From the NCBI GenBank assembly GCA_902514275.1, contig CABXQD010000005.1:1-45136 (forward strand): a stretch of DNA of 45,136 bases. The letters are read 5' to 3'. This stretch comes from an uncultured marine group I thaumarchaeote. GTDB taxonomy: Archaea; Thermoproteota; Nitrososphaeria; Nitrososphaerales; Nitrosopumilaceae. The notes below the pieces were generated by a model. That model did not search any database, was not told where the DNA came from, and saw only the letters and a program-made list of their open reading frames with translations. A program made the translations under genes and the position numbers. Position 1 is the stretch's first letter. Each line of letters starts with the position of its first letter. Shown in pieces: positions 31,229 to 39,940 of the stretch.

Positions 31229-31462
31229 ATGAAAGAGGATAAAATGAAAATAATGTGTAAGTGGTGTAACGTATCCATGAATTGCCACATTGTTAGTGAA
31301 GAGGTATCAGAACACAATGGAGCATACGGAATTGATAGTATTAAGATGGCTAAAATTAAAATTCATAAGCATTTCAAAGGAAAAAATTATTGCAAAGGCT
31401 CAGATAGAACCATCACTACACCCAAAGACAAGATCAATGATAACAAAGTGCATTACCAATAA
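31229..31462 (+). CDS. Small Cys/His-rich hypothetical protein, ~77 aa
   Basis: Possible zinc protein: MKIMCKWCNVSMNCHIVSEE carries C-x2-C-x5-CH, with H-x-H and a Cys further on (IHKHFKGKNYCKGSD). ATG 31229 or ATG 31244 (MKIMCKWC). The tail is polar. No recognised family. Confidence 0.5.
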   Translation: MKEDKMKIMCKWCNVSMNCHIVSEEVSEHNGAYGIDSIKMAKIKIHKHFKGKNYCKGSDRTITTPKDKINDNKVHYQ

Positions 31463-34385: not shown

Positions 34386-34499
34386 CTAATTTAGCAATAA
34401 ATCTACCTTGATGGCACATTTCTTGTGATACCAATGACTATTTCGTATCTGAGGTTTCAATCTAATCTCCTTAGTACATAAGGTACAATGAATTTTCAA
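34386..34499 (-). CDS. Micro zinc-finger protein, 37 aa (second of a tandem pair)
   Basis: TTG frame overlapping the TGA of the preceding gene as TTGA. The sequence KIHCTLCTKEIRLKPQIRNS then HWYHKKC gives C-x2-C...H-x2-H-x2-C ligands. It shares CTLC-x-K, IRN-x-H and YH-x2-C with its upstream neighbour, so the two are paralogues or a broken two-finger gene. Confidence 0.55.
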   Translation of the reverse strand: MKIHCTLCTKEIRLKPQIRNSHWYHKKCAIKVDLLLN

Positions 34500-34627
34500 A
34501 AGAAAGTCTCCAAAGGAATCAAGTGAGCAACATGCCACACACATGACCTATGATAGGAATGTTGATTCCTAATTCTTCGTTCATCAAAAGGCATGATTTT
34601 TTTGCAAAGAGTACATGGAATAAACAT
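34496..34627 (-). CDS. Micro zinc-finger protein, 43 aa (first of a tandem pair)
   Basis: ATG frame of 43 codons: MFIPCTLCKKIMPFDERRIR, then NQHSYHRSCVWHVAH. Ligand pattern C5, C8, H23, H26, C29. It is homologous by eye to the following 37-aa frame, which it overlaps by 4 bases (TTGA). It is probably a treble-clef-like or C2HC finger. Function unknown. Confidence 0.6.
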   Translation of the reverse strand: MFIPCTLCKKIMPFDERRIRNQHSYHRSCVWHVAHLIPLETFF

Positions 34628-34774
34628 AGGCTACTACAAACCTATCTAAAATTAGCTTAAGATACGTGGGTTATTATAAAAAATACTATGTGTTAATGAA
34701 ATATATCTTACAGGGGAAAAGACAAATTCAAAAAAACAACGAAGTTTGATTAAGTGGTGTTTTAATTTAAAATT

Positions 34775-34945
34775 ATGACCAATTTAGCAATAGGAGGAAT
34801 ATCTAGTTTTTTCATTATGGGAATTGTTGTATTGATCATCTATTTTGCATATCCGTCATTTGAATATTCTTTAGCTATTGCCAGTATCTTGATAATAATT
34901 GGTTTGGTTACTATCGCTCAACTAAAGATAGTTAATAAATTATAA
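34775..34945 (+). CDS. Two-TM micro-protein, 56 aa
   Basis: ATG frame of 56 codons made of two hydrophobic helices (ISSFFIMGIVVLIIYFAY and LAIASILIIIGLVTIA) joined by a short polar loop, ending KIVNKL. It lies 16 bp upstream of the basic 44-aa gene. Function unknown. Confidence 0.5.
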   Translation: MTNLAIGGISSFFIMGIVVLIIYFAYPSFEYSLAIASILIIIGLVTIAQLKIVNKL

Positions 34946-37290: not shown

Positions 37291-37529
37291 GCAATTGCTA
37301 CTCTTTTTATCAATGCATTTTCTGGAACTATGTGTATTTTTTCTTTATTGTTAACACAGTTAAAAAAAATTCTAGTACATTTTTCAAAATAATATGTTTC
37401 AGAATGTTCTTGATTTCTGAAGAGTAATATTTGAGCTTCAGGTTTTATTGCAAGCCAAGTTAAATTACCATTAATAATACCCAGACTTTCCCAATCATCG
37501 AATTTTGGAATATATGTTGTCAAGAGCAC
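37287..37529 (-). CDS. Hypothetical protein in metal operon, ~80 aa
   Basis: Starts at GTG 37529 or at TTG 37523, which overlaps the TGA of the binding-protein gene as TTGA. Soluble beta-rich sequence (GNLTWLAIKPEAQILLFRNQ) with two Cys (FEKCTRIFFNCVNN). It overlaps the TPR gene by 4 bp. Function unknown; operon position suggests a metal-related role. Confidence 0.6.
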   Translation of the reverse strand: MLLTTYIPKFDDWESLGIINGNLTWLAIKPEAQILLFRNQEHSETYYFEKCTRIFFNCVNNKEKIHIVPENALIKRVAIA

Positions 37530-38908
37530 TCTAATGCGACTTGCAAGTTATTCATATTTTGTCTCATTTTATCAAAGTATGTGGTATTTGGATCATCATC
37601 TTCTGTAAGTGATTCTAATGGACTAAACAACAAAATATCACCGCCTAATTCAGATGCTAATCTTTCAGCCAGTTTTGTATTTCTATTTTCTTCAGTAAAG
37701 AAATACTTGATGTCATTGTCTTCTGCAAAATGAATTAGATCCTCAATATCCTTGGCAGTCACAGGAGTTTCAGGGCTAAATTCCTTTATTACTCCCAAAG
37801 TTTCAAGGTCATATCTTTCTGCAAAATACGAAAATGCATTATGGAATGGTACAAACGTGTCTTTTGCGCAAGAAGATACTTCATTTCGGATTTCTTGATC
37901 CAATTGATCTAATTGATTGGCATATGAAATAGCATTGTCATGGTAGATTTCTGCATGTTCAGGATCTGATTCTTTCAAGTGATCTGCAATAGTCATTACC
38001 TGAGATTTTGCCAATATAGGATCAAGCCAAATGTGTGGGTCATAGGAAGTATTCATGTGTCCTTCTTCTGCATGGTCATCGTGTCCATCTTCTTTTGTAT
38101 GGTCATCGTGTCCATCTTCTTTTGTATGGTCATCGTGTACATCTTCACCAGAAACTAAATGATGAATCTCTTCTAGTCCTTCTGCACCTTCCATATGTCC
38201 ATCTTCAATTTCATGGATTAAATTTTCAATATCTTCAATTGCACCTTCATGTCCATGTCCATCTCCTTCATGTTCAAGTAGTATCTCTTCAATTTCTTCA
38301 ATAGATTGTGATTGTGTTATTTCGCCTGCTTCAAATTCTTCTATAACATGTGCAATCTCTTCGTAAAATTCTTCTGCATGGTCATCGTGTCCATCTTCTT
38401 TTGTATGGTCATCGTGTACATCTTCACCATGACTTCCATGTGAACTATGATCATGTGCGTCTCCTTCCATTAAGGTAATTCCTTCAGATGAATCTACAAA
38501 TATGATATGTGCAAAATCAGGAGAAGATTTTATTTCATCAATGTATGGTTCAAAACCAGCACCATTGTAAACCAGCATATCTGCTTTAGTCAAATCAACA
38601 ATAGTTTTTGGTCCTAACTCAAATGAATGAGGATCTCCATTAGATGGAATCAAAATTTGTACATCAGCAGCATCTCCTGCAACGCCTTGAGTAAATTGGT
38701 ATAAGGGGTAAAATGTAGTATAAACAAGTAATTTATTTTCAGATTGAACAGCAACTTCATTTTCAGATTCCATAGTTGGGATAACAACATCAATGTCAAC
38801 GATTAATGGAGTATCATCATTTTGAGTTCCCATAGATACAAACAATACGGCAACAATCACAGCTGCTGCAATTCCTCCACCGATAATTCCAATTTGAGAA
38901 CCTTTCAT
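37520..38908 (-). CDS. Zn/Mn-type ABC transporter substrate-binding protein with large His-rich insert
   Basis: Cluster A-I (ZnuA/TroA) binding protein, membrane-anchored by residues 6-27 and lacking a lipobox Cys. Metal ligands are H93 (NGDPHSFELG), H292 (DPHIWLDP), H356 (FVPFHNAFSYF) and E406/E407 (FTEENRN). A ~140-residue insert (148-288) is packed with HDDH/HGH/HEH and contains two copies of GEDVHDDHTKEDGHDDH; it makes the protein 462 residues against ~300 usual. The insert should buffer or scavenge Zn or a similar metal outside the cell. No permease or ATPase gene adjoins it. First gene of a three-gene coupled operon. Confidence 0.9.
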   Translation of the reverse strand: MKGSQIGIIGGGIAAAVIVAVLFVSMGTQNDDTPLIVDIDVVIPTMESENEVAVQSENKLLVYTTFYPLYQFTQGVAGDAADVQILIPSNGDPHSFELGPKTIVDLTKADMLVYNGAGFEPYIDEIKSSPDFAHIIFVDSSEGITLMEGDAHDHSSHGSHGEDVHDDHTKEDGHDDHAEEFYEEIAHVIEEFEAGEITQSQSIEEIEEILLEHEGDGHGHEGAIEDIENLIHEIEDGHMEGAEGLEEIHHLVSGEDVHDDHTKEDGHDDHTKEDGHDDHAEEGHMNTSYDPHIWLDPILAKSQVMTIADHLKESDPEHAEIYHDNAISYANQLDQLDQEIRNEVSSCAKDTFVPFHNAFSYFAERYDLETLGVIKEFSPETPVTAKDIEDLIHFAEDNDIKYFFTEENRNTKLAERLASELGGDILLFSPLESLTEDDDPNTTYFDKMRQNMNNLQVALECS

Positions 38909-39184: not shown

Positions 39185-39940
39185 TTAATCAGTTTGTACT
39201 TCATTTTTATTTTTATTGAATTTGTTGTATCCATCTTGGTTGTATCCATCTTTGTCATAACATAAATGATCATATCCTTGTTTGTCAAAGCCATTCTCAT
39301 CATATCCATTCTCATCATATCCATTCTCATCATATCCTTGTTTGTTGTAACCTTCTACATTGTAACCATTTTTGTTGTATCCATTCTCATCATATCCTTG
39401 TTTGTTGTAACCTTCTACATTGTAACCATTTTTGTTGTACCCATTCTCATCATATCCTTGTTTGTTGTAACCTTTTTTGTTAACTCCATCTATGTTGTAA
39501 CCTTTTTTATTAAAACCATCTTTGTTGAACCCATCTTTGTTGTAACCTTTTTTGTTATAACCAGCAGTATCAAAAGGAATTTTTGTCTCAATGTGAATTC
39601 CATCTATTGAAAAACCCCGATTATCATACCCAACTTTGTTGTAACCTTTGTTATTGAATCCTTTTTTGTTGTATCCATCTTTGTTGTAACCTTTAAAATC
39701 AAATCCATCTTCATCATATCCTTCTTTGTATCCTTTTTTGTCATATCCCTTTTTGTCAAATCCTTTTCGATCATATCCTCTTTTGTCATATCCTTTTTTA
39801 TCATATCCATTTCTATCAAAGCCATTTTTGTCATATCCTTTTTTGTTGTATCCATTTTTGGCAAACCCATCTTTATCATATCCATCTAAATCATACCCTT
39901 GTTTGTCAAATGTATGACTAAATCTATCCAAGAAACCCAT
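39185..39940 (-). CDS. G-[YF]-[DN]-x-x pentapeptide-repeat protein, 251 aa
   Basis: After MGFLDRFSHTFDKQ almost the entire chain is about 45 tandem five-residue units of G-Y/F-D/N-x-x (GYDKDGFAKNGYNKKGYDKN and so on), interrupted once near residues 110-125 (IETKIPFDTA). It is rich in Gly, Tyr, Asn, Asp, Lys and Glu, with one Cys (LCYDKD). Early repeats are Lys-rich (KK), late ones Glu/Asn-rich. Not the Pfam pentapeptide-repeat (A[DN]LXX) family. No signal peptide. Likely an extended, repetitive structure; function unknown. Confidence 0.8.
   Translation of the reverse strand: MGFLDRFSHTFDKQGYDLDGYDKDGFAKNGYNKKGYDKNGFDRNGYDKKGYDKRGYDRKGFDKKGYDKKGYKEGYDEDGFDFKGYNKDGYNKKGFNNKGYNKVGYDNRGFSIDGIHIETKIPFDTAGYNKKGYNKDGFNKDGFNKKGYNIDGVNKKGYNKQGYDENGYNKNGYNVEGYNKQGYDENGYNKNGYNVEGYNKQGYDENGYDENGYDENGFDKQGYDHLCYDKDGYNQDGYNKFNKNKNEVQTD
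39321..39470 (-). repeat. 60-bp tandem DNA repeat inside the pentapeptide-repeat gene
   Basis: A 60-bp unit (four pentapeptides, GYNKQGYDENGYNKNGYNVE) runs twice nearly perfectly and half a third time, differing at a single base in the best-aligned part. This shows recent unit duplication in an otherwise diverged repeat array. Confidence 0.8.

Follow-up and report, generated by a model that had tools for sequence, protein, structure and literature searches.

Two genes or one broken gene

Two short and related open reading frames that overlap by four bases raise an immediate question: are they the remains of a single gene, or two genes tied together, and if the latter, what drives them and what might their products do? 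Such a pair occurs on the minus strand of the window, which is the whole stretch of DNA analyzed (45,136 nucleotides, contig 5 of G000, the genome of a marine ammonia-oxidizing archaeon of the genus Nitrosopumilus, 63% complete). Gene A (34627-34496, minus strand) begins with ATG, ends with TGA and encodes 43 amino acids (MFIPCTLCKKIMPFDERRIRNQHSYHRSCVWHVAHLIPLETFF*); gene B (34499-34386, minus strand) begins with TTG, ends with TAG and encodes 37 ((M)KIHCTLCTKEIRLKPQIRNSHWYHKKCAIKVDLLLN*). Both products are predicted to be one-site half-LIM zinc micro-proteins. A preliminary description of the locus had reported adjacent minus-strand frames of 43 and 37 codons that share the blocks CTLC-x-K, IRN-x-H and YH-x2-C, the second frame starting inside the stop of the first. 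The frames are indeed at these places, the three blocks are present in A and B alike, and the stop of A overlaps the start of B in TTGA (34496..34499, minus strand), where the TTG of B and the TGA of A have two bases in common within TTTTGA.

The same description left open whether the pair is a duplicated domain translated as two coupled polypeptides or a protein of two domains broken by a frameshift, and proposed a comparison with orthologues. Protein searches covered 61 relatives, 95 genomes within the genus and 250 within the family (the relatives named here are Nitrosopumilus genomes, mostly metagenome-assembled or single-cell). They found homologues of both proteins in dozens of Nitrosopumilaceae genomes, with best E-values of 1e-24 for A and 3e-20 for B. 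In most relatives the A-type and B-type genes are single short ORFs at separate loci: in G006, a complete genome, they lie at 951 kb and 846 kb, 105 kb apart; in G098 the distance is 49 kb, in G011 they are on different contigs, and in G024 they are also unlinked. The protein search of the 250 family genomes revealed no fused A–B frame. The overlapping arrangement itself is found in four species, G000 together with G113, G115 and G116, which retain the A–B order and the TTTTGA overlap; the flanking DNA has diverged. The position at which B begins is also informative. Solo B genes, which start with ATG, GTG or TTG, do so at the codon aligned with the TTG of paired B, and for this reason we favor TTG at 34499 over an in-frame ATG at 34544.

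Orthologue comparison thus supports two genes, and of the two readings first offered it is the coupled pair that fits. That a frameshift or a sequencing error cut a two-domain zinc protein in two, a notion encouraged by adjacent, related frames overlapping by 4 nt, is scarcely credible, given single-domain homologues at separate loci, an identical two-frame arrangement in four genomes and a start codon common to solo and paired B. Recent tandem duplication was likewise rejected: A and B are only 45% identical to one another, and both resemble their own orthologues more closely (74–98% identity between A and its closer orthologues), so the pair is not a fresh tandem duplicate. A viral origin was considered and set aside: searches of viral contigs confirmed no relative, PADLOC gave no hit and PHROG none of use.

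Selection on the pair and its history

Among the four pair-bearing genomes, A shows dS of 0.04–0.79 against dN of 0.01–0.03; for B the corresponding values among G113, G115 and G116 are 0.24–0.67 against 0.02–0.07, single values being rough because the counts come from very short genes. The excess of dS over dN, along with homologues in dozens of genomes, means that the frames are not products of chance. Two observations had been named in advance as telling against the locus, orthologues without the Cys/His pattern and neutral drift. What we see is invariance of C, C, H and C, and dS far above dN. On this comparative evidence A and B are two separate polypeptides under purifying selection.

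The two genes of the G000 pair differ in their affinities. Its A is little diverged from those of G113 and G115 (dS 0.23–0.30); its B is saturated relative to B of these same genomes, with dN of 0.20, and is nearer in protein to the solo B of G024 and G006 (dN 0.05–0.08). The chromosomal place also differs between G000 and the other three pair-bearing genomes. In G000 the pair occupies a variable stretch of small genes flanked by genes for an aspartyl-type tRNA synthetase and a TPR protein; in G113, G115 and G116 it adjoins a second synthetase-like gene, near which G098 has a solo B, and the G000 contig carrying that second gene holds an apparent decayed copy with its upstream element (described below) still present. 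The history of the pair is likely to have been one of partner replacement or independent assembly.

The pairs of G113, G115 and G116 have a 161-aa gene and an aminoacyl-tRNA synthetase as common neighbors. Across clades, synteny of the A and B loci revealed no recurring neighbor that names a target, and synteny was rejected as a functional guide because neighbors vary between clades. Several features of the surroundings are nonetheless worth recording. At four loci in four genomes (L064, L070, L109, L111) a solo B follows a glmS-like gene at a distance of 80 bp and is itself followed, after a few bases, by a gene for a 56-aa membrane protein, a homologue of which is found in the window at 34775-34945 (plus strand), divergent from the A–B pair. 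A 77-aa protein with CKWC (MKEDKMKIMCKWCNVSMNC...), encoded at 31229-31462 (plus strand), recurs near A, B or paired genes at six loci in different genomes. On the minus strand, a gene 3 kb from the pair (37520-38908), with no element upstream, encodes a zinc-binding protein of ZnuA type that has His-rich repeats, and 39185-39940 encodes a 251-aa protein of GYDKKGYDKNGF-like repeats without a Pfam match.

A predicted zinc domain resembling half a LIM domain

In an alignment of 20 members of the A/B family four positions are invariant, C5, C8, H26 and C29, giving the pattern C-x2-C-x16/17-H-x2-C. The ligand set first suggested, C-x2-C-x13/14-H-x2-H-x2-C, therefore stands for both leading cysteines, the second histidine and the final cysteine; its first histidine (H23) is not conserved, being replaced in homologues by K, M, S, R or N. 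From this pattern we infer that A and B bind zinc, at one site each.

The domain had been called unrecognized. Against Pfam and NCBIfam no family exceeds threshold, the only matches being sub-threshold ones to RING, LIM and PHD; the best LIM match (E 0.019, below the curated cut-off) occurs in 3 of the 20 members. In a profile search of PDB sequences a LIM domain ranked first, with E 0.15. Structure prediction, which the preliminary description had recommended, gave models with mean pLDDT of 75.5 for A and 84.7 for B, good models numbering one of five and two of five, respectively; the chain forms a hairpin, then a helix starting around HxxC. Foldseek lists for these treble-clef models are dominated by the first halves of LIM domains, aligned over 25–30 residues at ~1 Å, with E-values all >0.1 – weak, as is to be expected for such short chains. 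The domain is thus recognizable as LIM-like, and the models, of moderate confidence, make a one-zinc half-LIM treble clef its likely fold. In such a fold CxxC would lie on the knuckle and HxxC at the start of the helix, with one zinc per protein.

Within the genus the same zinc domain also occurs in longer proteins, where it precedes a GT2 glycosyltransferase or a KaiC-like ATPase as a fusion (hhalign of micro-protein domain against long-protein domain: probability 97%, E 7e-11). At three loci (L040, L045 and L046, in G033, G035 and G007) it stands behind a common N-terminal helical block with GDxGR and SDxxY, and ahead of a membrane segment plus GT2 or KaiC-like ATPase.

A promoter-like element precedes A and solo B genes

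Lining up the DNA before solo genes of unlinked loci brought to light a conserved element, ACAATAACC-N6-TCTTAA, some 40–54 nt before the start codon of A and solo B genes. The A–B unit of the window has an exact match to AATAACC-N6-TCTTAA (AATAACCCACGTATCTTAA; 34657..34675, minus strand), the sole match in the window at up to two mismatches; the corresponding profile match spans 34646-34677 (E 8e-6). Conservation is limited to TnnYACAATAACC-N6-TCTTAA and is at background level on both sides. The AATAAC core was used for alignment; the flanking positions and TCTTAA were not.

To define the frequency of the element we took A and solo B genes extracted from fetched loci. AATAACC is present 52–64 nt before the first Cys codon in all 32 A genes, another genus included, and at the same distance in 10 of 11 solo B genes, the eleventh having the one-base variant AATAAACC. 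Control ORFs of at least 100 aa at the same loci have it at that distance in 4 of 807 cases. The contrast (42/43 against 4/807) has a Fisher p of ~1e-65, a value inflated by the relatedness of the A and B genes to one another. Exact matches to the long pattern number 13 in six genomes: 10 stand before A or B genes, and the remaining three before a decayed copy, a CxxC-containing 110-aa ORF and a 35-aa ORF. One-mismatch matches examined elsewhere fall almost all inside other genes, and some copies of the element precede decayed or unclear ORFs. One further match, ACAATAACCGAGAACCCTTAA at L155 (G098:C1:15882-15900), lies upstream of a proteasome alpha-subunit-like gene and the pattern is seen again in G024; this gene may be a further member of the regulon or a chance occurrence.

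None of the four paired B genes has the element, and paired B thus probably depends on the promoter of A. Eight nucleotides before the TTG of B, in the last codons of A, is GGAG (34508..34511, minus strand), a possible Shine-Dalgarno sequence. The codons that contain it are also kept in solo A genes; GGAG is therefore weak evidence for coupling, and as proof of it was rejected. Overlap, GGAG and the lack of a promoter element for B are together consistent with translational coupling of B to A, which we consider probable.

Searching 95 genomes with a profile of the element pointed to further small genes that begin behind it. Among these is a family, D, of single C2H2 fingers of ~34–42 aa (MSYRCLICNxxLxTPxKLEVHLQIEHKW) that is not homologous to A/B (hhalign probability 3%); a 46-aa protein with CxxC plus CxxC stands behind the element in two genomes. 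A protein search for D returned 26 copies, six of which had built the profile, and so carry the element by selection, leaving 20 to be counted independently. AATAACC is exact in 12 of these, at about -44, and small variants such as ATTATAACC are found in six; the two in which no element was found are both decayed. D genes of three more genera mostly have ACAATAACC, ATTATAACC or ACTATAACC at the same place. At L250 (G085:C83) a D gene with the element continues as a 301-aa frame, possibly a fusion.

Possession of a zinc domain does not by itself bring the element. It is absent from the genes for the long zinc-domain proteins and from the C-type paralogues (MNCTLCKQEIEL..IRNDHVYHECCA), which carry another conserved leader, GGCATAAGTAGTATTGAGAGGTAYTRTNGTCATG, immediately before the start (L073, L074, L075, L106) and occur in tandem at G014:C43, G011:C76, G011:C87 and G114:C6. 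The element is thus found at a fixed distance before non-homologous genes, well above background, which suggests that it is the promoter element of a zinc micro-protein regulon. Its occurrence before at least one unrelated zinc-finger family points to a hitherto unrecognized group of co-regulated zinc micro-proteins.

A possible mode of action

Taken as a whole, we favor with moderate confidence a reading in which A and B are separate half-LIM micro-proteins, B is driven by A, the promoter is specific to the family and the products act as regulators or adaptors. Archaeal TATA boxes of nearly leaderless transcripts lie ~30 nt before the start codon, and archaeal activators commonly bind just upstream of the core promoter. 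TCTTAA, at ~30 nt before the start codon, would be a TATA-like box giving rise to a nearly leaderless mRNA, and AATAACC, just upstream, would be bound by a dedicated activator or by the micro-proteins themselves; that it also precedes the non-homologous C2H2 family makes such a role probable. Promoter activity of the element is predicted from its position and conservation. (For comparison, the TATA box of the haloarchaeal gene brz lies 25 bp before its transcription start site [PMC2253796].) B would be translated from the transcript of A by termination–reinitiation. The proteins would be small co-regulated regulators or adaptors whose zinc domain binds nucleic acid or a protein partner. Such a role is the likeliest function by analogy with what is described for haloarchaeal zinc micro-proteins, namely the part played by Brz and the phenotypes of deletions. 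A bolder version, which we put forward only tentatively, is that, in ammonia-oxidizing archaea, ACAATAACC-N6-TATA is a dedicated operator-promoter read by the micro-proteins themselves, so that unrelated one-finger proteins make up a self-regulating network which gains, pairs, swaps and loses members between genomes.

Other explanations deserve consideration. The micro-proteins could serve to buffer or store zinc, with the element being bound by a regulator that responds to zinc or other metals. The occurrence of the element before at least two unrelated small zinc-finger families and the presence of a ZnuA-type zinc-uptake gene 3 kb from the pair lend this some appeal; however, the element is missing upstream of the ZnuA gene, the loci examined included no metal transporter downstream of an element, and one zinc site per protein makes for a poor store. 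We consider it unlikely. Scarcely different in standing, and if anything a little lower, is the idea that A and B are competing or bridging half-LIM adaptors acting in trans on the GT2 glycosyltransferase and the KaiC-like ATPase. What commends it is the presence of the homologous domain in front of the two kinds of enzyme within one genus, but the genomes with the most A and B genes (G000, G006 and G011) yielded no confident long-protein match in the A/B searches, and the long genes lack the element.

The last and least probable of the three holds that gene and element together are a mobile cassette and that AATAACC marks no promoter but the end of an inserted or recombined segment. Loci that vary between clades, copies that decay and partners that vary between pair-bearing genomes would all be explained; yet the element keeps an almost constant distance from the TATA-like box and the start codon, no conserved sequence follows the genes downstream, the element is common to unrelated genes and, in close species, place is kept. 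We therefore retain a promoter for small regulators or adaptors as the preferred reading.

Comparison with known systems

Zinc micro-proteins have been studied mainly in salt-loving archaea, and most are without a defined target. The families described here, absent from Pfam and NCBIfam, belong to some of the most abundant marine archaea, and because a sharp and searchable DNA element accompanies them, their regulation is directly testable. Annotation easily overlooks genes of 34–48 codons that start with TTG or GTG; the element offers an independent means of finding them. Searches of the open-access literature found nothing direct on thaumarchaeal zinc micro-proteins or on an AATAACC promoter element, and no report of a promoter element common to different zinc micro-protein families. 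Small archaeal zinc proteins are already known; the A/B families match no curated family.

Among the closest known counterparts are the haloarchaeal CPxCG proteins (Brz, HVO_2753, HVO_0758; PMC2253796, PMC6562870, PMC11241148 and PMC10716476), which resemble A and B in being shorter than 70 aa with a predicted zinc site, and in having many paralogues per genome, mostly without an assigned target. Transcription of bop is regulated by Brz (PMC2253796), and haloarchaea from which zinc micro-proteins are deleted show phenotypes (PMC6562870); some predicted archaeal zinc micro-proteins are reported to bind no zinc (PMC11241148). In the definition given, the CPxCG type has at least one CPxCG, CPxCx or CxxCG pattern (PMC2253796). 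A has CTLCK and B has CTLCT, with no P or G at those positions in the alignment of 20 members; these motifs, together with HxxC, place A/B outside the published definition. A second pair 7–40 residues away in a protein of <100 aa is present, HxxC following CxxC by 16–17 residues in proteins of 33–67 aa. The A/B families also have a promoter element in common, for which the sections consulted offered no counterpart among CPxCG-type proteins.

Family D, with C-x2-C-x12-H-x4-H, resembles the single C2H2 proteins of archaea and their viruses (for example that of PMC3541406), its match to Pfam zf-C2H2 (E 0.0011) being below the cut-off; A and B are not homologous to it (hhalign probability 3%). In predicted structure, A and B resemble the LIM domain (PF00412), whose sequence score against A/B is below threshold. 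Its first site has the same C-x2-C-x16/17-H-x2-C spacing, and the moderate-confidence models of A and B align to LIM first halves at ~1 Å over 25–29 residues, with E-values >0.1. A LIM domain comprises two adjacent zinc sites with eight ligands, whereas A and B have four invariant ligands and a chain that ends after the first site.
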